In this document: piece after piece, positions 36,023 through 47,649 of the stretch
Layout: each line of letters opens with the position of its first letter
Numbering within the stretch: the first letter of the stretch is position 1
NCBI RefSeq assembly: GCF_009734425.1
Contig: NZ_CP046455.1
Location: 1,488,001-1,552,000, forward strand
Direction: 5' to 3'
Length of the DNA: 64,000 bases
From: Corynebacterium occultum
GTDB taxonomy: Bacteria; Actinomycetota; Actinomycetes; Mycobacteriales; Mycobacteriaceae
Notes under the pieces: model-generated
Seen by the model: the letters and a program-made list of their open reading frames with translations, nothing else
Databases searched by the model: none
What the model was told of the DNA's origin: nothing
Translations under genes and position numbers: made by a program

Positions 36023-37384
36023 CTAGATGGTGCTCAGGTCCTGATCCCTCGTCTCCTTCATGGTCACGATCGCGATCAGCGAAATGCAGGCCACGACGAT
36101 CAGGTAGAAGCCCACCGACTGCACACCGAACTTCGCGTTGAGGGCAGTGGCGATGAAAGGTGCGATGGCGGCACCCAGGATGGAGGAGACATTATAGGAG
36201 ATCCCCGAACCGGTGTAACGAACATTGGTGGGGAAGAGCTCCGGCAGGACCGAAGACATGGGGCCGAAGATCAGACCCATCAGGAACATACCGATGGTCA
36301 AGAAGGCCAGGACAGAACCCTCGGTGGCGGTCGCCGGATCCAGGAAGAACTTGAAGCTGAAGCCGAAGGCGATAATCGCGATGGTCGTCCAGAACAACGT
36401 CGGCTTACGCCCCCGGGTATCTGCCAGACGACCGGCGATCGGGATGCCGACGATGAAAGCGAAGATGGAAACCAGCTGAATCACCAGGAAGTCGGTGTAG
36501 GGGATACCCAGACCGATACCGGCCTCCTTATCACCGATGCCATAGGAAAGGATCCAGGTGGTGACCAGGTAAAAGATGGTGTAGCAACCGACCATGATGA
36601 AGGTACCCGCCAGCATCGGCCCCTTCGCGGTGCGGAAGACCTCCTTGAGCGGGGAATCAACCTTCTTACCGGCATCCACCGCCTGCCGAAAGACCGGGGT
36701 CTCCTCCAGGCGCAGCCGAACATACAACCCGATGATCACCATGACCGCAGAAGCCAGGAAGGGCAGGCGCCAACCCCAGGACATGAAGGCACCCTCCACA
36801 TCACCATTATCGTGCCCGAGGAAGGTGACCAGAATCAGGAAGAAACCATTGGCGAGGAAAAAACCGAAAGGAGCACCAAACTGCGGCCACATGGCAGCCC
36901 TGGCCCGCTTACCCTCCACCGCGGTCTCAGAAGCCAACAGAGCGGCACCAGACCACTCACCACCCAGGCCCAGCCCCTGACAGAAACGCATCAACGCCAG
37001 CAACGCCGGCGCAATAATACCGATCTGACTGTAGGTGGGCAGCAAACCAATGATGAAAGTGGCGATACCCATGGTCAACAGCGCACCAACCAGGGTGGCC
37101 TTACGCCCGATACGGTCACCGAAATGGCCGAAAATGACAGAACCGAGCGGACGAGCCACGAAAGCAAGACCAAAGGTGGCGAAAGAAGCCAGCAACGCGA
37201 CGGTGGGATTATCCGATTCCGGGAAGAACAGGAAGGGGAAGACCGCGACCGCCGCAGTGGCATAAGCATAGAAATCATAGAACTCGATCGTGGTTCCGAT
37301 GGTGGAGGCGAACGCCACCCGGCGTCGCTCCTTGGGCGTCAGCTCCGGTTTGACTGAGGATGCCTGATCGACTGTCGTCGACAT
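36023..37384 (-). CDS. MHS-family MFS transporter (metabolite:H+ symporter)
   Basis: 453 aa with 12 membrane segments. The MHS signatures are present: TIGTTIEFYDFYAYATAAV in helix 1, FGHFGDRIGRKATL in loop 2-3, and RFCQGLGLGGEWSGAALLASE in helix 4. Members include ShiA, ProP and KgtP and move organic acids or osmolytes with protons. Ribosome site AAAGGTGG before ATG 37384. It faces the same way as the Mo-oxidoreductase operon but is separated by a strong terminator. It may import the substrate of that enzyme; this is inference from position only. Confidence 0.9.
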   Translation of the reverse strand: MSTTVDQASSVKPELTPKERRRVAFASTIGTTIEFYDFYAYATAAVAVFPFLFFPESDNPTVALLASFATFGLAFVARPLGSVIFGHFGDRIGRKATLVGALLTMGIATFIIGLLPTYSQIGIIAPALLALMRFCQGLGLGGEWSGAALLASETAVEGKRARAAMWPQFGAPFGFFLANGFFLILVTFLGHDNGDVEGAFMSWGWRLPFLASAVMVIIGLYVRLRLEETPVFRQAVDAGKKVDSPLKEVFRTAKGPMLAGTFIMVGCYTIFYLVTTWILSYGIGDKEAGIGLGIPYTDFLVIQLVSIFAFIVGIPIAGRLADTRGRKPTLFWTTIAIIAFGFSFKFFLDPATATEGSVLAFLTIGMFLMGLIFGPMSSVLPELFPTNVRYTGSGISYNVSSILGAAIAPFIATALNAKFGVQSVGFYLIVVACISLIAIVTMKETRDQDLSTI

Positions 37385-37427
37385 AAGACACCACCTTTCT
37401 CATGGCCAATAAACATTACCCAAAAAG

Positions 37428-37491
37428 AATATCTTCTCACTAGATGGGATGCAAAATCTCATATAATAAGATATTCCACCACGTGAGATTA
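37428..37491. promoter_or_regulatory. AT-rich promoter/operator region of the MHS transporter
   Basis: This is an AT-rich island in GC-rich DNA. It holds two nested inverted repeats: AATATCTT (37428-37435) with AAGATATT (37468-37475), and AATCTCAT (from 37456) with GTGAGATT (to 37491). The spacing suits a regulator dimer or tetramer. No regulator gene is adjacent, so the controlling protein is unknown. Confidence 0.5.
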
Positions 37492-37554
37492 TAAGACAAA
37501 AAAGAAAAGTGTTCCCCCGAAAATTTCGAGACCCATTCCCACACCATGAGATAA

Positions 37555-37764
37555 ACACACCCACCCGCACCGAAAACCACCACAATCGCGCCGGGTGAGG
37601 TGGGGGAGTCTCGTCGAGTGGCCGCCCTGGTAGCGCTGATGGACATTGCGCCTGGCTGGATGCTGCTGGGCGCAGTGAATTCGGGGGGGCGGATCTGCAA
37701 TCTCGGGGTCGCGTCCGGTGGGGTGGACTATTTGATGCCGTGGGTTCTGATGGTATGGGAATGA
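37555..37764 (+). other. Short coding-like open frame of unknown nature
   Basis: A frame open from 37555 to TGA 37762-37764, with possible GTG start 37600, reads with ordinary amino acid composition (VAALVALMDIAPGWMLLG, then ICNLGVASGGVDYLMPW). No ribosome site is visible. It may be a gene fragment, since it has the look of conserved protein but no recognisable complete domain. The rest of 37500-38078 shows nothing else. Confidence 0.25.
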
Positions 37765-38078
37765 GGCAATCAAACTTTGCGACTCTTCTTGGGGCATCAT
37801 TTCCCTCGCGGGGATCATTCCACGACGATCTCCATCCCGCCCCGACTGTGCAACTTTATTTTGAAACACTCATTCCCATTGGCCCAGCACCGGCCCGTCC
37901 ATTCACCGAAACTCAGGCATCGAGCTCTATTCTCGACCGATTCAACAGCCATAGATTAAGTGGCGGAAGGAAACCTCAACGCCACCGTCGGCACGCCTGA
38001 AGTGATGTGGATCACCAATTTTAGGGCTATCCTGGGATATGGACCTAAACCATGCAATGGGGTTGAAAGAAGGTGCAC

Positions 38079-38570
38079 ATGGGTGCAGTTGAACCCACCG
38101 GCACTATCATCGCCGGTGCAGAAGGGCCGGAGTTGCTGATCTCTCGGGACTTCACGGAGAACATCAAGGAGGTTTGGGCTCATGTGGTCGAATCTGATCG
38201 CCTCGCGCAGTGGTACGGCACTTGGGCGGGTGATCCTATAACAGGAAAAGTCTGGCTCACCATGATTGAGGACCCAGACTCTCCAAGGGAGTGTCACATC
38301 CACCAATGCGAAGCGCCCCACCTGCTTGCAGTGAGTATCTCGGATTCCGAGGGTGAGTGGCAGATCGAACTCAACCTGAGTGTCGAGAAAGAAGGAACCA
38401 GGTTGACCTTCCGGCAGCCACTGAGAGGCTTCGAGATGGCGGCAACAGAGGTGGGCCCGGGTTGGGAGTACTATCTCGATCGGCTCCGAGCTTCCTTGGC
38501 CGGCGGGAACGTGGAAGAGATCGACTTCAGCTCCTACTATCCCCACCAGATAGAGCACTACCGCGCTTAG
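38079..38570 (+). CDS. SRPBCC/AHSA1-like ligand-binding protein
   Basis: 163 aa. N-terminal LLISRDFTENIKEVWAHVVESDRLAQWYGTW is the typical start of an activator-of-Hsp90-homologue/polyketide-cyclase-like (SRPBCC) domain. The end GPGWEYYLDRLRASLAG is also typical. Its function is usually unknown or stress related. ATG 38079 has gaaagaagg upstream at proper distance; GTG 38073 is too close to that site. Single gene with no operon partner. Confidence 0.85.
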   Translation: MGAVEPTGTIIAGAEGPELLISRDFTENIKEVWAHVVESDRLAQWYGTWAGDPITGKVWLTMIEDPDSPRECHIHQCEAPHLLAVSISDSEGEWQIELNLSVEKEGTRLTFRQPLRGFEMAATEVGPGWEYYLDRLRASLAGGNVEEIDFSSYYPHQIEHYRA

Positions 38571-38946
38571 GTTCGACACGTCGCTTTCCTAGAGAGCTCT
38601 CGAATCAGACTTCGCTTCTCCCGTTGAACATGGCCGGGTGATTAAATCTCCCTGCCACACAGGTGGGTTGCCCGTTTCAGCGGGAGATTGGTCCGGACGG
38701 CTGGCGGAGAGAATCCGCTCAGCTGTCAGGTACTGGAGCGGGCGGTGGTGCAGACTCTGCTCCAGGGCACGGCGAAGCTTATCGCTGCCCATCTGTCCGG
38801 TGGGCCGGGGATTTTGAACGGGATGATCGGGACTGCGAGGGCGGAAGGATATCCGGACGTGGCCAGTCGCGTTGATGATGTCTATGCTGGGCCGCAACCA
38901 GACGCAGCAGCGTGCTGCGGCTTCTCTGGCATAGGAGGAAATTGAC
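38571..38946. other. Intergenic stretch with one open but unrecognised frame
   Basis: 376 bases between the SRPBCC gene and the next. One plus-strand frame is open from about 38660 to the TGA at 38943-38945 (contains LLQGTAKLIAAHLSGG and ARAEGYPDVASRVDDVY) but has no good start or ribosome site and matches nothing I know. It could be the tail of a lost gene. A ribosome site (ggaggaaa) for the following gene lies at its end. Confidence 0.3.
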
Positions 38947-39423
38947 ATGGCTGAGGAAATCACCAAGGAAGATATCGTAAGCAAACTGCGCGATGCGAAC
39001 TGGGTCATGATGACCACGGCAGGTGCGGACGGCAAGCTGGTGTCCCACCCGATGGTTCCGCAACAGGTCACTGATGACGCAGACGTATGGTTCTTCGTCT
39101 CACTCACAGGCGGGCACGCTGAGGCGCTCAAGGCCAGCCCGGAGGTGAACCTATCCGTGGCTGAAGCTGGCTCCTGGCTATCGGTGGCCGCAGACATCGA
39201 ATTCATCGAAAACCGCGCGAAGATTGACGAGCTGTGGAACAAGGATGTGGAGGGCTGGTTTAAGGGCAAGGACGACCCTACGATCGGTCTGATCAAGGCT
39301 ACTTCTGAGTCCGCTCAGTTCTGGGGTCTGCCGGGAGGGAAGATATCCGCACTGGCCCGCATCGTGAAGTCGCGTGTCTCTGGCGATCGCACCGGCGGCG
39401 GCTCCGAGGCCATGGAACTCTAG
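38947..39423 (+). CDS. Pyridoxamine 5'-phosphate oxidase-fold general stress protein
   Basis: 158 aa. The split-barrel flavin-binding fold of the general stress protein 26 group: NWVMMTTAGADGKLVSHPM at the start, DVWFFVSLTGGHAEALKASPEVNLSVAE in the middle and ELWNKDVEGWFKGKDDPTIGLIK afterwards, all typical. Probably binds FMN or F420; reaction unknown. Strong ribosome site ggaggaaat before ATG 38947. Confidence 0.9.
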   Translation: MAEEITKEDIVSKLRDANWVMMTTAGADGKLVSHPMVPQQVTDDADVWFFVSLTGGHAEALKASPEVNLSVAEAGSWLSVAADIEFIENRAKIDELWNKDVEGWFKGKDDPTIGLIKATSESAQFWGLPGGKISALARIVKSRVSGDRTGGGSEAMEL

Positions 39424-39496
39424 GCCTGTTGCCTAAGTAGCGGCCGCGGTGGATGTGACGGTGTCACCTGCACAGCGGCCCTCCATCAGCTACAGG

Positions 39497-39865
39497 TCAG
39501 TGATAGGAGAGCGTTTTGACCATCACGTTATCGTCGGCCCCTCCAAAGTCTGTAGGAATGTCACTGACCATAATGTTCTGATCAGGATCAAGCTGGCAGA
39601 GAAAGTACTCGGATTCAGGACAAGCATTAAGATCCTTAGGCTGGAACCATTCAACCCGTGAATCCGTTCCATCCGCGAATATTAATCCAATTCCGGTATT
39701 CGTTTCCCATGCATCAAAGCCCCGTGTTTCCACCTCCCGCAGGATTGGTGTATTGGCAGAACACATAGGCCGATCTTTGATCGGCTCGTCGACCACCGCG
39801 GCCAGACTCAACGCCGCTCGCTCATGAACAGCACGGGTAATCCCATCTTCAGAGTCCGAGGTGCA
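39497..39865 (-). pseudogene. Probable lipoprotein fragment lacking its signal-peptide start
   Basis: The frame reads a lipobox-like TFSGC (Cys codon 39863-39865) followed by TSDSEDG and about 120 residues of a small soluble domain with two further Cys (MCSAN, NACPESEYFLCQ). Upstream of the lipobox the same frame has only a short hydrophobic stretch (QLACCAVTFS) and then proline-rich noise without a Met or a Lys/Arg start. The only in-frame start downstream is TTG 39811. It is therefore likely a lipoprotein gene with a damaged 5' end. Family unknown. Confidence 0.45.
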
Positions 39866-39972
39866 ACCGCTGAAGGTTACAGCGCAGCAAGCGAGCTGAG
39901 TGCTGCCGCCTGGGGGTACAGGTGGCGCAGTTGCCCGGTGGGCTTATTTTCCCACCGTACGCAGAATCCCGC

Positions 39973-40536
39973 TCAATGCCTTGTCTCGTACCTGGCCAGA
40001 ACCACGCCACCGGGAAACGTCCGTGTCTCCACGAGGTTCAGGTTCACCCAGCTATCTAGCGCGGTGAAAAACGGTGTGCCACCACCCACCAGGACCGGAT
40101 GGGTGGCCAGCACATACTCGTCGATCAACCCGGCCCGCATGGCCGCCGCGGCGAGCGTGGCACCGCCGATACTCATCGGCCCGCCGCCGTCAGCCTTGAG
40201 CCGGGTGATCTCGGCGATCGCGTCGCCGGTGACCAGGCGGGTGTTCCAGTCGACCTTGTCGATCGTCGAGGAGAACACCACCTTCGGTGTGTCCCGCCAG
40301 TGTCGGGCGAACTCGATCTCCGCCGGGGTGGCATCGGGCTGCTGATCACCGGTGGGCCAGTAGGAACTCATTGTCTCCCAGAGTTTGCGTCCATATAAGG
40401 TCAGGCTGCTCGCTCGTTCCTGGTCGAGCCACCATTGGAACAGCTCGTCACTGGGCGCGCTCCAGCTAATGTCGTCGCCGGCCGCGGCGATGTAACCGTC
40501 CAGGGTCACGTTCATGCCATAGATCAGTGTCCGCAT
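39973..40536 (-). CDS. Dihydrofolate reductase-like (RibD C-terminal fold) protein
   Basis: 187 aa. Begins MRTLIYGMNVTLDGYIAA and contains LTLYGRKLWETMSSYWP, KVVFSSTIDKVDWNTRL and ADGGGPMSIGGATLAAAAM, the standard pattern of the small YyaP/RibD-C dihydrofolate-reductase-like family. These bind NADPH; the natural substrate is unknown. True folate DHFR is not implied. A single gene among unrelated small genes near dif. Confidence 0.88.
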   Translation of the reverse strand: MRTLIYGMNVTLDGYIAAAGDDISWSAPSDELFQWWLDQERASSLTLYGRKLWETMSSYWPTGDQQPDATPAEIEFARHWRDTPKVVFSSTIDKVDWNTRLVTGDAIAEITRLKADGGGPMSIGGATLAAAAMRAGLIDEYVLATHPVLVGGGTPFFTALDSWVNLNLVETRTFPGGVVLARYETRH

Positions 40537-40863
40537 GGTGCCAGCCTTCCGTGAGGTGGTTTTTAGCCTCTACGCCGTGGGTGGAAGTTATAAGGAGGTG
40601 CAGATGATGTGGGTGTTGGTGCAAAGTTGAGTGAGCAGTCGAGAGGGACTCAGGTTCTCACCGTCTGATGAGTGCGCAATACCAGTGTTATCAACCGGGT
40701 CTTCGAGACCTCCTGATAACGCCCGCACGCAGCGAGCATCAGAGTCAGAAAGACTGAGTCTTCATGGCCCCCGGCCCGGAGTTTGCGACAACACCCTTAT
40801 TCTCACGATAGTCAACCTCACAGTGCGGAACGGCCGGGCCCGGTCGGAGTGTTCCGAGTGGTT
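40537..40863. other. Intergenic stretch with a nested hairpin
   Basis: No gene seen. A nested dyad lies at 40687-40720: outer arms GTTATCA/TGATAAC and inner arms GGTCT/AGACC around tcg. There is no T-run on either side, so it is not a standard terminator. Nothing else supported. Confidence 0.3.
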
Positions 40864-41205
40864 TTATGCCGCGGGGCCGAGTGCTCCGTCCGCCTGCCCG
40901 CCTGCTGCTCCCTTGAGTTCAATGAGGATCGAGTGGGTCGGTGTATCACCGGTGTTCTCGCCGGAGTGACGTTGCGCGGGTATCCACACCGCCTGCCCAG
41001 CCTCGAGCCTCGTATCGAATACGCGATCGCCCGCTGAGAGCTTGCGTGAAAAGGAGCTCAGCGTGACCATCACGCTGTTCGGGTGATCGTGAGGAGTGGT
41101 TCGATCGCCCGGCTTGTCGACGTACTCAAGGACGCGAACGAATTCATTTTCCCAGAGCGTGCGGTAGTGATCGGGGTTCGTCAGTGTCGGATCGTCAGCG
41201 ACCAT
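40864..41205 (-). CDS. Small cupin-domain protein
   Basis: 113 aa. The cupin metal-site pattern is visible as TTPHDHPNSVMVTLSSF and later GQAVWIPAQRHSGEN; the start MVADDPTLTNPDHYRTLWENEFVRVLEY is the common one for this short family. Function is unknown. ATG 41268 would add 21 residues, and an in-frame stretch further up even starts MKSVRLFDSLDDTTWEKAL (from 41421) before a TGA. The homologous start at 41205 is the most likely, although no strong ribosome site precedes it. Confidence 0.75.
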   Translation of the reverse strand: MVADDPTLTNPDHYRTLWENEFVRVLEYVDKPGDRTTPHDHPNSVMVTLSSFSRKLSAGDRVFDTRLEAGQAVWIPAQRHSGENTGDTPTHSILIELKGAAGGQADGALGPAA

Positions 41206-41433
41206 ATGCTGATCGTACTCCCGCGGAAGTGACTGAAACAAGAGGTAGGCGTAGAAAATCGGACGCATCCAATTCCCCTGCAGTGGAGAGGAAATGTGGC
41301 CTGGCCAGGTAAGTGGTGAGGGGGGAGTTCCGTCCACGATCTCGTAGATACGGCGATACCGTCAGAGGGCCTTTTCCCAGGTCGTGTCGTCGAGAGAGTC
41401 GAATAACCGGACGGATTTCATGCGGTGCTCACC

Positions 41434-41676
41434 TCATCGGCACAGCGAACTCCGGTCTCCAAAGCGGTGGGCGGTGTAAACGCGTCGAGCAGCGCAAGGG
41501 ATACGGTTCGATGCAGGGGAGTAGCGGTCGATGTCATAGATCTGCATATACAGCTGCATACCGAACTGGAAGTTCCTCTTCAAAAAGTCGGTGTACGCGG
41601 GATCATTCAGGCTGTAGGGCAGCTCGGCCGGAACGAAGAGGACAATAGGTCGGGAGAAATCCCACGTTGGTTGATA
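41434..41676 (-). pseudogene. C-terminal fragment of an unidentified gene
   Basis: A minus-strand frame opens after TAG (41677-41679) and reads about 80 residues with strong protein character: TWDFSRPIVLFVPAELPYS, then DPAYTDFLKRNFQFGMQLY, then MQIYDIDRYS, ending at TGA 41434-41436. There is no start codon with a ribosome site at its beginning, and the last 25 residues (Arg/Cys-rich) look like frameshifted or foreign sequence. I do not know the family. Confidence 0.4.
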
Positions 41677-41929
41677 CTACCGGTGGAATCTGACTTGAGA
41701 AGGCGGTGAGATTGGGTGTGGTGGTCCAAGAATCATCCCGGCCGTTCTGTGAAGTGGCGACAATACAAAGCTGCCAGACGAAGCTGTGTGGGTGTGGTCC
41801 GCATGGAGGTGGTCGCGGTGGCCTGGTACCTCTGGATAGGTGTGATCGCGTTCTGGTCCAATTTTCATTGGCCAACTTTCATGTCAACGGACACCAGCAG
41901 CACCAGAGGGGGATGACCCCATCCCGTTA

Positions 41930-41957
41930 AAATGACATAATGTACATTATCGGACAA
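41930..41957 (-). other. dif: dif site (XerC/XerD chromosome dimer resolution)
   Basis: On the minus strand: TTGTCCGATAA (XerC arm), TGTACA (central six bases), TTATGTCATTT (XerD arm). The 11-6-11 layout, the inner palindrome ATAATGTACATTAT and the TTATGT.A XerD arm match bacterial dif sites, including the actinobacterial form with CGATAAT and ACATTATGTCA. It lies in a gap with no gene, in the map region where C. glutamicum has its terminus. XerC/XerD and FtsK would act here to resolve chromosome dimers. Confidence 0.88.
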
Positions 41958-42674
41958 TTGGGGATATCTGGCTGAAAACTGGATCATGTCCACCTGGCCA
42001 GCTTTTGTGGCCCGGCCGGCGTTCACCAGCATCCCACACAGACGCCCCAGGACTTTAGCGCTGAACCCTCAAGCCTGCCCGGCCGTCCAACTCCGGCGCC
42101 CCCAACCTTTCCTGCTGACCCGTCTTCACATCTTTATCATCGCCCCCAGCAATGCTCAGGGCGTGCCAGCCTCCAGGGATCGGTCCCGCGGGATTCCTCG
42201 CGCCAAGTAAAGCCCCCAGGTCGGCCTCGGATGCAGGTTTATGGTGTCACGATGTGGGGCCAGGATAATGTTGCGGCCCCAGGGCTTCATGAACCCTGCA
42301 CGGGGTCCGAGGCAGCTATCTGGGAGGAAAATCCCCAGAAAAGTCCCGAGGCCCTGTCTGAACCCCAACCCCTGAACCTCATTATATTTCGTCACAGTGA
42401 CGTTTTTAATAATGTTGCCCGAGGGTTGATGTTCATCCGTCCGAACTTCTTGGGTCCGGGCAATTCGCATAACTGAGATACAAACCCCCCAACATTTCCT
42501 TACCCAGTCCACGCTGGATCGGGCAATCCAAAAAATCAAGCTTGGGAGCTTATGTGCATTTCCTCCCACTACTTAGCGAACATACCAACCGCCTGGTTCA
42601 GGGGCTGCCCAGGAGGGCTTCCCAAAACTACCCAAGATCCAAGTCCCCTATCCACCTGGACACATAAATAACAA
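41958..42674. other. Gene-free stretch next to dif
   Basis: About 720 bases without a gene I can support; the frames present lack ribosome sites and protein-like composition. It holds a perfect 13-base dyad CGTCACAGTGACG (42391-42403) preceded by a TATATT-like hexamer. The sequence before dif (41855-41900) and just after it (41968-41995) has phrases such as ggtccaattttcattggcc that resemble ends of IS21-type elements, but this is weak. Confidence 0.4.
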
Positions 42675-42713
42675 CACCCCTAGCTAACGTAACGGTGACG
42701 TTAATCAGGGGTG
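42675..42713 (-). terminator. Terminator of the YceI operon
   Basis: Stem CACCCCT (42675-42681) with AGGGGTG (42707-42713), and inner TAACGT with ACGTTA. On the minus strand it is followed by ttgttatttatg. It lies 24 bases after the small membrane gene's stop. Confidence 0.7.
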
Positions 42714-42736
42714 CTGCTCTGCTCATCAATATCGGA

Positions 42737-42916
42737 TCAGGATTCTAAACTATTCTTTTCCTGATATCCCCGGACCAGTTGCCAGATGGTGATCAGCATC
42801 AGTACGACCGCAATGCCGAGAACCCACCAGGTTCCCTGCCAGCCAACAAAGATGGCGAAGGCAATCAGAACAGCCAGGCGGAACCAGATCATCGGGATCA
42901 TGCGTGATGCCAGCAT
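42737..42916 (-). CDS. Small membrane protein (59 aa)
   Basis: ATG 42914-42916 directly follows the YceI gene's TAG with no spacer, so it is read by translational coupling. The product is MLASRMIPMIWFRLA followed by two hydrophobic segments (VLIAFAIFVGWQGTWWVLG and IAVVLMLITIWQLV) and a charged tail (RGYQEKNSLES). Function unknown; it is probably an inner-membrane protein with both ends inside. Too short for most gene callers, but composition, coupling and the following terminator support it. Confidence 0.7.
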   Translation of the reverse strand: MLASRMIPMIWFRLAVLIAFAIFVGWQGTWWVLGIAVVLMLITIWQLVRGYQEKNSLES

Positions 42917-43612
42917 CTACTGTTCCTTACCCAGGGAGATACGAATGTTCAGTTCTCCCTCTTCGGCGATCTTTGCGGCAACGAACTCCGGCGATTCAAG
43001 ACCGAAGTCAATACGGTTGACGGGAAGATTCCCGGCGATGACGACCTTGTCCTCATCACGGAGCACATCGAAGGTACCGCTGACTTCATTGGTGGCGCCG
43101 TGGATCTCCAGGTCGCCGACCAGTTCGACCTGGCCGGGGGTGCCGTCATCAGGGACGGTTGAAAGATCAACCGGCTCGGTGATGGTGAAGGTCGAGGTCG
43201 GGTAATCATCGGTGTGGAAAATACTCATCCGCACATTGATGTCGCGACGCTCATTGTCACTGCTCAGCTCACGCATGTCCACGGTGATCTCACCGGCATT
43301 CAGGGTGTCATTGCTGATATTGACCGTGCCCTCGACTGCCTGGGTGGAGCCTGAGGTGATGCGATGCTCGACCGGCAGGATCTCGGCGAAAGTGTAGCCC
43401 ACGGAGGTCAGGTTATTCTGGTCGCCCCGGACGACCTCCCAATCGCCATTCACCTCCACAGTGGCAGGTTCCGCAGACGAGGTGTTGAGCCCCTCAGTCT
43501 TCACACCCGGCCCCATGATGAGCCCGTAGATCACCGGTCCCACGACGACCACACTGAGGAGCAAAACGAGCACCACGACGATAGAGACAATGGTCTTCTG
43601 ACGTTTGAGCAT
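42917..43612 (-). CDS. YceI-family protein with N-terminal membrane anchor
   Basis: 231 aa. An N-terminal helix (IVSIVVVLVLLLSVVVVGPVIYGLIM) anchors or exports it; the rest is the YceI lipocalin-like barrel with GDWEVVRG, VGYTFAEI, VEGTVNISNDTLNAGEITVDMREL, FHTDDYPTSTFTITEP, VVIAGNLPVNRIDFGL. YceI proteins bind isoprenoid/quinone-like lipids in the cell envelope. Ligand unknown here. It is co-transcribed with the downstream 59-aa membrane protein and probably with the zinc-ribbon gene just upstream. Confidence 0.9.
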   Translation of the reverse strand: MLKRQKTIVSIVVVLVLLLSVVVVGPVIYGLIMGPGVKTEGLNTSSAEPATVEVNGDWEVVRGDQNNLTSVGYTFAEILPVEHRITSGSTQAVEGTVNISNDTLNAGEITVDMRELSSDNERRDINVRMSIFHTDDYPTSTFTITEPVDLSTVPDDGTPGQVELVGDLEIHGATNEVSGTFDVLRDEDKVVIAGNLPVNRIDFGLESPEFVAAKIAEEGELNIRISLGKEQ

Positions 43613-44580: not shown

Positions 44581-45384
44581 TTAGAAGTTGTACTTACGGC
44601 GCTTCTTGTTCAGCTCATAGCCGACCAGTTTGCCCATCTCCACGGACAGATCCTTGACCTGCTTGCCGCGGTGCTTCAGTCCCCAGCGGGTGACCTCCAT
44701 CAGGGAGTCCTTCACGAAGCTGCCGTCCAGCTTGGATTCACCGATCTCACGCTCGGTGAAGGTGATCGGAACCTCCCGGACGTCATAACCGCTGCGGACC
44801 GCACGCCAGGCCAGGTCGACCTGGAAGATATAGCCGGCCTTGGAGAGCTCGCGGAAATCGAGCTCCTTGAGGAAGTTGCGACGGTAGGCGCGGTAACCGG
44901 CAGTCATGTCGGTCAGACCGGCACCCAGTGCCATGGAGATGTAGACATTACCGCCCTTGGACAGCACCAAGCGTTCCTTCGGCCAGTTGACCACACGGCC
45001 ACCCTCGACGTAGCGGGAACCGATGACCACATCCGCGCCCTGGTCGATCTGCTCGAGCAGCAGGTGCAGCTGCTCCGGGGCGTGGGAACCATCAGCATCC
45101 ATCTCGCAGAGCACACCATAGGCACGCTCCAGGCCCCACTCGAAACCTGCGACATAGGCGGCGCAGAGCCCCTCCTTGCCCTTACGGTGCAGAACATTGA
45201 TCTGCTTATCCTCGGCAGCCAGTTCATCGGCACGCTTGCCGGTGCCGTCCGGGCTGTTGTCGTCGACGATGAGGATGTCGACCTGCGGGGTGGCCTTGCG
45301 TACCCGACCGACGATCAGGGGCAGGTTCTCCAGCTCGTTGTAGGTGGGGATGATCACCAGAGTTCTGTCGCTGGGTTTATCCAT
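44581..45384 (-). CDS. ppm1: Polyprenol monophosphomannose synthase
   Basis: 267 aa GT2 glycosyltransferase. It transfers mannose from GDP-mannose to polyprenyl phosphate, giving the mannose donor for lipomannan/lipoarabinomannan and protein mannosylation. GT-A signs: IIPTYNELENLP, ILIVDDNSPDGTG and the metal-binding MDADGSH; QVDLAWRAVRSG in the acceptor region. It has no C-terminal membrane domain, as in corynebacteria where the partner Lnt-like membrane protein is separate. ATG 45384 has AAGGAG. Downstream of lnt by 52 bases, same strand. Confidence 0.95.
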   Translation of the reverse strand: MDKPSDRTLVIIPTYNELENLPLIVGRVRKATPQVDILIVDDNSPDGTGKRADELAAEDKQINVLHRKGKEGLCAAYVAGFEWGLERAYGVLCEMDADGSHAPEQLHLLLEQIDQGADVVIGSRYVEGGRVVNWPKERLVLSKGGNVYISMALGAGLTDMTAGYRAYRRNFLKELDFRELSKAGYIFQVDLAWRAVRSGYDVREVPITFTEREIGESKLDGSFVKDSLMEVTRWGLKHRGKQVKDLSVEMGKLVGYELNKKRRKYNF

Positions 45385-45436
45385 CAGGTGGGCTCCTTGT
45401 AGTCGGTACTTGTTCTGGGGCAGGCGCTGCATCTTA

Positions 45437-47077
45437 TCAGCGGCGCGGGTTACGCCCAGTTCGGACAGGGGTCTTGTTGGAGGTGGACTTGCCGTTGCCC
45501 TTCCGAGCCTTGGCGGATGCCTTGGTCCTGGCAGTGTTCTGCTTTCCGGGGCCGGAACCCCGGGATGCAGACCTGACCGGTTGGAAAGAGGACTTTCGCT
45601 GGGTCCACAATGCCACGATCACACAGACGACTCCGATAATAACCAAGAAGATTTGAACCGCCGAACCATAACGTGCGGAAAGGGTCAGGGAATTTCGCAA
45701 CGGCAGCTCCTCCACCAGCGTATCGGCGGTGAAGATCCTGGTTTGCTGGCTGATGGAACCATCCGGATGGACGATCGCGGACACCCCCGAAGTGGCGGGG
45801 ACAACCACAGCGCGGTCCAGCTCAATGGCCCGCATCCGGCTCATCGCCAACTGCTGGTAGGTCATGTCGGTGAAACCGAAGGTGGCGTTATTGGTCGGCG
45901 TGGTCAGGATCTGCGCCCCATTGAGGACGGCATCCCGGGCTGCCGCGTCGAAAGCAACCTCGTAGCAGGTGGCAATTCCGACGGTGATGCCGTCCATGTT
46001 CACCACCCCGCTGCCCTCACCGGGCTTGAAATCTCCGGCGGCATCCACCCAGGGGGAGAAATTCCGGAAGAATTCGCGGTAGGGCATGTACTCCCCGAAG
46101 GGCTGCAGGTAGATCTTGTGGTGGTACTCCCCCGCCCCGGTTTCCGGGTCGAACACAACCATGGTGTTGCGGTCACCGACATCATCGCGGGTGATGGTGC
46201 CCACCAGAATGGGTGCCTGTGCGGACTGGACCGCGGCGTCGATAAGCGCCCCGGCCTGCGGGTCATTGAAGGGGTTGACGTCGGAGGAGTTCTCCGGCCA
46301 GAAAATCAGGTCCACCTCATCATCGAGTGCCTGGGTCTCCCGAACGTGATTCGCCAGGACGGCACGGCGCTGGGCGTTGAAATCCAGACCCATGCGCGGC
46401 ACATTGCCCTGGATCGCGGCAACCTCGACCGTGTCAGTGGTCTTGAGCGGATCATTGACCGGGATGCCCGCCAACAGGCCCGCCATCAGCATCACCACAG
46501 CGGTGGCGGTGCCCGGAATCCAGGCCAGGGGCGCCCGCTGCTTCTGTGAAAGATAGATCACCAGGGCAGCCAGGCTAGTGCCGGTCAGGGCCGCAGCCAG
46601 GGAGACCAGTGCCGGGCCCCCGAGATGTGCCAGATTGGCCAGAGGGCCGTTGATCTGGCCCCAGGCCAGGCGGACCCAGGCGAAGCCACCGAAGGGCCAG
46701 GAACTGCGGAGGAACTCGACTGAGACGTAGAAAAAGGGGAAGGCGAGGAAACCATAGCGCCAACGGGCGATCGCTGCTCCGCCGCAGCCGGTGGCCAGGG
46801 CGTAGAGGGAGAGCACCCCCGCCAGGGCGATATAGGGCATATTGCCCACAAACTCCCCGATCCACGGCAAGAGCAGCAGATAGAGCGTGAGGGCATGGAT
46901 GAACCCGATCAGGGTGCCCCAGCGCAATGTGATCTCATGGCCTCTGTGGGGGCTGAGACTCAGATAGAGCAACGCCAGGCCGAGGATCCCGGAGATCCAC
47001 CAGCCCAGCGGTTCAAAGCTTGCGAAAACAAGCAGTCCTGAGGCGGCCGCACCCAGGACCCGAAGATTCTTGATCAC
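45437..47077 (-). CDS. lnt: Apolipoprotein N-acyltransferase
   Basis: 546 aa inner-membrane enzyme that N-acylates lipoproteins. Six to eight hydrophobic segments in the first 200 residues are followed by the nitrilase domain. Its catalytic triad is Glu in FWPENSSDVNPF, Lys in YHHKIYLQPFGEYMPYRE and Cys in GIATCYEVAFD. A basic, low-complexity tail of about 50 residues (KARKGNGKSTSNKTPVRTGR) is extra. In mycobacteria this domain is fused to Ppm1; here the two are neighbouring separate genes. It starts inside the end of the FxsA-type gene (4-base overlap). Confidence 0.94.
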   Translation of the reverse strand: MIKNLRVLGAAASGLLVFASFEPLGWWISGILGLALLYLSLSPHRGHEITLRWGTLIGFIHALTLYLLLLPWIGEFVGNMPYIALAGVLSLYALATGCGGAAIARWRYGFLAFPFFYVSVEFLRSSWPFGGFAWVRLAWGQINGPLANLAHLGGPALVSLAAALTGTSLAALVIYLSQKQRAPLAWIPGTATAVVMLMAGLLAGIPVNDPLKTTDTVEVAAIQGNVPRMGLDFNAQRRAVLANHVRETQALDDEVDLIFWPENSSDVNPFNDPQAGALIDAAVQSAQAPILVGTITRDDVGDRNTMVVFDPETGAGEYHHKIYLQPFGEYMPYREFFRNFSPWVDAAGDFKPGEGSGVVNMDGITVGIATCYEVAFDAAARDAVLNGAQILTTPTNNATFGFTDMTYQQLAMSRMRAIELDRAVVVPATSGVSAIVHPDGSISQQTRIFTADTLVEELPLRNSLTLSARYGSAVQIFLVIIGVVCVIVALWTQRKSSFQPVRSASRGSGPGKQNTARTKASAKARKGNGKSTSNKTPVRTGRNPRR

Positions 47078-47649
47078 TTCTCCGGCTTCCCCTTGCCCGA
47101 ATCTCCCTCATCACGCAGGAAGTCCTCAGGATCAAGGTTGGAGGTCCATTCCTGGATCTCCGCCTCATCGATGACCTCATGGTTCGGCTGCCCCTGGGAG
47201 GGATGCCCCGCCTGGGATGCCTGGGTATTCGGATCCCGGAAATTTCCGTAGCTGGCGCGCTCACGGTACATGTTGGTGGCCTCGAAACTACGCACCCCTA
47301 AGTTCTCGATGGAGGTGCGGAGCTTACGGGCCAGAATCTTACGGATCACCATCCGGGTCGGCGGAATGATCAGCAACAGGCCCAGCAGGGTGGTGGCGAT
47401 ACCCGGCAGGGCCACCAAAACGGCGCCGGCAGCCAGCAGGCCGGTGTCGCCGGCAGCCTGGCCGGGATCGATCTTCTGGGTGGCGGCAGCCTGGCTGATA
47501 CTGCGCATTTGAGCGGCAGCCAACCACAGACCACCGAAGAAAGCGACAATGATCGCCAGGATCGCCCAGCCGAGACCGAGCCAGGAGGCCAGGGCCCAGA
47601 AAGTGAGAATCTCGAGGATGAAGTACGGAAGAGCTATCAGTAATGGCAC
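47074..47649 (-). CDS. FxsA-family membrane protein
   Basis: 191 aa from GTG 47649. The FxsA core of about 120 residues has hydrophobic segments LIALPYFILEILTFWAL, WAILAIIVAFFGG and AAGAVLVALPGIATTLLGLLLIIPPTR, the last being the typical FxsA ending. A hydrophilic acidic tail (NLDPEDFLRDEGDSGKGKPEK) follows. E. coli FxsA is a minor membrane protein that counters phage F exclusion; in actinobacteria its role is unclear. Leads the fxsA-lnt-ppm1 group. Confidence 0.85.
   Translation of the reverse strand: MPLLIALPYFILEILTFWALASWLGLGWAILAIIVAFFGGLWLAAAQMRSISQAAATQKIDPGQAAGDTGLLAAGAVLVALPGIATTLLGLLLIIPPTRMVIRKILARKLRTSIENLGVRSFEATNMYRERASYGNFRDPNTQASQAGHPSQGQPNHEVIDEAEIQEWTSNLDPEDFLRDEGDSGKGKPEK

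Follow-up and report, generated by a model that had tools for sequence, protein, structure and literature searches.

The DNA analysed here, called the window throughout, is a stretch of 64,000 bases of Corynebacterium occultum (C1:1488001-1552000), whose genome has 3,218,058 bases in two contigs, the first of them, C1, with 3,109,186 bases. As read directly from the sequence, AAATGACATAATGTACATTATCGGACAA occupies exactly positions 41930-41957 of the window on the plus strand, which is 1,529,930 in the coordinates of C1. It has an 11-6-11 layout in which two 11-bp inverted arms flank a 6-bp centre, in agreement with the consensus of the phylum, and a perfect 14-base palindrome, ATAATGTACATTAT, lies inside it at 41937-41950. 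With the site taken on the minus strand, 21 of the 28 positions are identical to the Frankia seed published for dif sites of Actinobacteria, and by comparison with the published orientation we infer that the left arm AAATGACATAA (41930-41940; minus strand, TTATGTCATTT) would be of the XerD type and the right arm TTATCGGACAA (41947-41957; minus strand, TTGTCCGATAA) of the XerC type, with the centre TGTACA (41941-41946) as the region of strand exchange predicted from the family.

The site is surrounded by about 1.58 kb of DNA with 55% G+C (41338-42916), a gap in which no gene is recognised. Three ORFs in this gap or reaching into it gave no family when scanned with Pfam and PHROGs, the two that were also scanned against NCBIfam gave no match, and five gap ORFs, compared by tblastn with 20 stretches that come from 18 relatives, found nothing. 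The sixth such ORF (42786-43205, plus strand) does have tblastn matches in 18; it is largely antisense to the adjoining YceI gene, so that its matches are read as the shadow of YceI. To the right of the gap follow the YceI-like gene (42917-43612; PF04264, E 4.7e-21), two small ORFs, a family 2 glycosyltransferase gene that is ppm-like (44581-45432), an apolipoprotein N-acyltransferase-like, or lnt-like, gene (45437-47077) and an FxsA-like gene (47074-47649), the four named genes being on the minus strand. To the left, the region 37385-41337 holds a RibD_C-like gene, a weak cupin match and ORFs without family, and beyond it lies an MFS transporter gene (36023-37384, minus strand).

A search of the whole 3.22-Mb genome with the 28-mer returned exactly one match at up to three mismatches, and the same threshold gave no match in any of 100 shuffled versions of the window. 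The core of the published actinobacterial seed likewise has one match in the genome, which is the site at 41930-41957, and a search of plasmid records with the site region gave no match. Across the genus, the site is present at up to two mismatches in 197 of 201 genomes, our own included, and the reversed control in none; 194 of the 197 have a single match and three a double one (G045, G052 and G178). As to the four misses, two genomes (G033 and G194) keep intact arms around another centre, one (G119) is only 53% complete, and in the last (G113, 95% complete) nothing matches well. A pattern made of the arms, at zero mismatches, matches 156 of the 201 genomes, twice only in G045 and G052, and its reversed control matches once each in three genomes. 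Moreover, at the level of the order, 91 of 101 genomes, again with our own among them, match at two mismatches and 10 do not, and the reversed control matches none.

The position of the site on the chromosome is also conserved. As dnaA lies at C1:754, the site is found at 0.492 of the chromosome from it, that is opposite to the replication origin, and for our genome and 18 relatives, in which dnaA was located and which were chosen from genomes whose long first contig carries dif, the position averages 0.499 with a standard deviation of 0.017 and a range of 0.460-0.535. On the second contig, a weak match to the DnaA ATPase family is seen at C2:25761-26036, which we take to be perhaps an IstB/DnaC-like ATPase. 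In the 830 kb of sequence examined, the GC skew is weak: nine of the ten 20-kb stretches to the left of the window are positive and six of the ten to the right negative, and in the contiguous 410-kb block 1,330,001-1,740,000 the cumulative skew has its maximum at 1,594,001, as far as 64 kb from the site. Raw GC skew, the check that the earlier note had put forward, was set aside as a proof of the terminus, being too weak.

The polar octamers provide a far sharper picture. The octamers published as AIMS, namely G(A/T/C)GGGGGA and (T/C)GGGGGAG, whose strand switch has served to locate dif in other corynebacteria (PMC2830990, PMC3022926, PMC3219685, PMC3164646), switch strand at the site, with counts of 87:9 on the left and 11:114 on the right within the 410-kb block. 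The change point of best likelihood falls at 1,532,538-1,534,127, or 2.6-4.2 kb to the right of the site, and the interval of 2 log units, 1,529,906-1,534,127, includes the site near its left edge; when ten octamers chosen from the arms are used instead, the interval becomes 1,532,539-1,534,127 and the site lies 2.6 kb outside. The nearest polar octamer on the left, the AIMS GAGGGGGA at 41906-41913 (plus strand; C1:1529906), points to dif. Over 420 kb of arm stretches the AIMS counts are 113:15 and 32:92. When divided by genes called with a simple longest-ORF rule, the leading to lagging counts are 99:11 in sense, 68:9 in antisense and 34:0 in intergenic positions, and since the bias is alike in all three, gene orientation is not the explanation. 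The data-derived TGGGGGAG behaves in the same manner, with 23:0 to the left and 1:32 to the right of the site. For the relatives, GGGGGAG within about 10 kb around dif (6.1 kb for the left of L101) counts 25:0 on the left and 2:26 on the right in 18 genomes, and [AG]GGGGAG in arm stretches of three relatives counts 9:0 and 1:10, 18:3 and 4:17, and 8:0 and 0:9. We had considered GGGGGAG as a motif not described before, an idea that was given up because the papers show it to be the published AIMS.

Two other guide octamers were tried and rejected. These are GGGNAGGG and GAGAAGGG, which we take to be the octamers guiding FtsK/SpoIIIE in E. coli and B. subtilis; the former has a weaker polarity here (83:55 and 61:107) as well as in the relatives (21:6 and 7:17), and the polarity of the latter is close to none in both.

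As for the neighbourhood, the conservation beside dif is one-sided, with a fixed right and a variable left. On the right, the group of YceI, two small ORFs, ppm-like, lnt-like and FxsA genes adjoins dif in all 18 relatives. A search with the ppm-like protein returned 25 loci, of which 24 are from Corynebacterium and one is a weak match in Gimesia, and dif is located 1.8-9.3 kb downstream of the ppm-like gene in 21 of the 24; in the other three (L164, L178 and L183) there is no dif in the downstream stretch examined. On the left, the MFS transporter is the only recurrent neighbour (7 of 18 relatives), the ORFs of 37385-41337 have one weak match (23%) in one relative, and for the remaining ORFs examined from 29114 up to the site nothing matches within about 10 kb in the 18 relatives. 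For ORFs of at least 120 amino acids within 6 kb of dif, compared between our genome and 17 relatives, the 85 on the left recur in a mean of 15% of the other genomes and 36 of them in none, against 42% for the 109 on the right, with 19 in none. This suggests the terminus as a hot spot of insertion and loss, by which the earlier note had explained the pile of fragments and small genes around the site; the explanation may hold for the variable left flank but not for the right, which is conserved in 18 of 18 relatives.

Such a variable left flank, low in G+C, together with the second dif-like sites that do occur in other genomes of the genus, might also be expected if the site were not the resident dif but a scar left where an element using XerCD (an IMEX) had integrated. 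Across 18 genomes, the left side is not consistently below the right in G+C. A scar of this kind is hard to reconcile with the same site standing beside the same right-hand neighbours in all 18 relatives, and in our own genome we found neither a second site with matching arms nor an element flanked by dif, with a loose search for a second site giving 50 matches compared with 74 for the reversed control. We therefore regard this explanation as very improbable.

The extent of the conserved unit was seen from a gapless alignment of our site with 30 loci out of the 197 matching genomes of the genus. Herein 17 of the 28 columns are invariant, a count that is partly built in because the loci were chosen by a pattern covering columns 4-26; outside the pattern, columns 1 and 27 are conserved at 97% and 94% and columns 2, 3 and 28 at 55-77%, and in the 12-base flanks every column is at most 71%. 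A variant, TGTCATAATGTATATTATCGG, is common among the genus sites and combines a change of the third base from A to T in the arm with a change of C to T in the centre; it is probably one lineage. The perfect 14-bp palindrome taken alone could be the operator of a regulator or some other DNA-binding motif that has nothing to do with Xer, but this is hardly credible for a motif that is usually in one copy per genome at the midpoint of the chromosome and at the octamer switch, that is conserved over a 28-bp unit and not in the flanks, and whose distance to the ppm-like gene ranges from 1.8 to 9.3 kb.

The recombination machinery is present in the genome as well, as XerD, a XerC-like recombinase and the FtsK gamma domain are all encoded. 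The XerD gene at C1:1443211 reaches 332.8 bits, above its cut-off of 329.6; the recombinase at C1:1896619 fits XerC (315.9 bits) better than XerD (286.3 bits), with the former score remaining below the XerC cut-off of 335.15 bits; and the gamma domain of FtsK is encoded at C1:1828416. Taking together the single copy, the midpoint position, the conservation in genus and order, the octamer switch and the Xer and FtsK genes, we conclude with a probability of roughly 0.97 that the 28-bp site is the chromosomal dif, of the XerCD type, of this Corynebacterium, and thus that the window spans the replication terminus. This is what the earlier note had proposed, and several of its particulars have been borne out, from the 28 bases in 11-6-11 layout and the gene-free gap to the sole match in the genome, equally good copies being absent, and the fixed point for the map. 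The last is a firm anchor, which puts the terminus near 1.53 Mb and makes the two replichores nearly equal.

By analogy with the family, the site would be bound by XerD on one arm and XerC on the other and cleaved by them under the control of FtsK. After sister chromosomes have been joined into a dimer by homologous recombination, FtsK would pump the DNA of the terminus at the septum, presumably oriented by the polar octamers directed at dif from both sides, until it unites the two copies of dif and triggers XerCD; strand exchange in the central 6 bp would then give two monomers.

Besides the resident dif, similar sites were observed elsewhere. Three genomes of the genus carry a second site in which the arms are intact but the centre is altered, at L099:8405 (G045:C1:1244405), L119:1830 (G052:C35) and L120:9999 (G033:C1:1809989). 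Each has a tyrosine integrase gene at a distance of up to about 6 kb and a tRNA or tmRNA gene in its vicinity; those of G045 and G052 stand at related HTH repressor-like genes, and both loci have primase-like genes. The three loci look like small integrative elements with a Xer site of their own. In G045, the 37.7 kb between the two sites was considered as one element integrated by XerCD, an idea that was dropped, for the interval contains ordinary metabolic genes as well as a tRNA-Pro with adjoining integrase and the MFS neighbour. If an element had integrated at this tRNA-Pro, its far end should show an exact repeat of at least 18 bases of the 3' end of the tRNA; a search of the 34 kb to the left of the tRNA found none. 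Nothing in annotated phage records matches a protein of the same locus (L099:8874-9371). In the order, five of 101 genomes (G250, G230, G251, G259 and G267; L158-L162) match the dif pattern twice, with altered centres.

In viral contigs, the arms with a free 6-bp centre are found in 19 stretches (L139-L157), compared with one for the reversed pattern, and 15 of the 19 are distinct after removing those with identical neighbouring proteins. The 6-bp centres vary among these contigs, and the site is outside the called ORFs in 14 of the 19 stretches. Two matches (L140 and L144), having TGG where dif has TGA or TGT, look like chance. Terminase genes neighbour the site in two stretches, L139 and L143, the match in L143 being the weaker, and most other neighbours tested have no family. 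Some contigs may contain host flanks, so that a phage origin is a candidate, not a certainty, for each of these sites. A tentative and rather doubtful idea is that tailed phages of Actinobacteria and small integrase-bearing elements carry Xer sites of their own, with intact arms and private, often non-palindromic centres, and rely on the host XerCD either for integration at dif or for the resolution of their multimers; if so, repeated integration restoring dif on the ppm-lnt side would explain the left-only variability in Corynebacterium. Among the papers listed by searches for Xer-using elements in Corynebacterium or Actinobacteria, PMC10023795, PMC5357621 and PMC11898615 included, no title or displayed abstract describes such sites. 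The one-sided conservation and the dif-like sites on mobile elements together could make Xer hijacking in Actinobacteria testable, and we consider this side lead more interesting than the dif finding itself.

Compared with known systems, the elements called IMEX, which include the CTX phi, VGJ phi and TLC phi types and the gonococcal genetic island, use dif and the host XerCD (PMC5357621), unlike our genome, which has neither a second site nor a dif-flanked element. For Actinobacteria, Kono, Arakawa and Tomita (2011) used a seed from Frankia alni and predicted dif in 66 of 66 single-chromosome genomes, and by their account no experimentally confirmed actinobacterial dif existed at that time (PMC3025954). 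Our site has in common with that seed the 28 bp, the 11-6-11 layout, the core CCGATAATGNACATTATGTCA and the location near the terminus, and differs from it in outer arm positions and one central base. Closer relatives are found within the genus: dif and AIMS have been described in C. aurimucosum, C. pseudotuberculosis, C. variabile and C. ulcerans (PMC2830990, PMC3022926, PMC3219685, PMC3164646), with the 28-bp site reported for three of the four and only the dif position for C. variabile, and for C. aurimucosum the octamers had already been used in this way to place dif in 2010 (PMC2830990). By description, not by letters, these species share with ours a dif about opposite to oriC and the same AIMS switch, and the published octamers locate the present terminus far better than GC skew. 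Since dif of Corynebacterium is already known in these relatives, the site fixes the map but is no surprise: it is an ordinary instance, in another species, of a dif already known.
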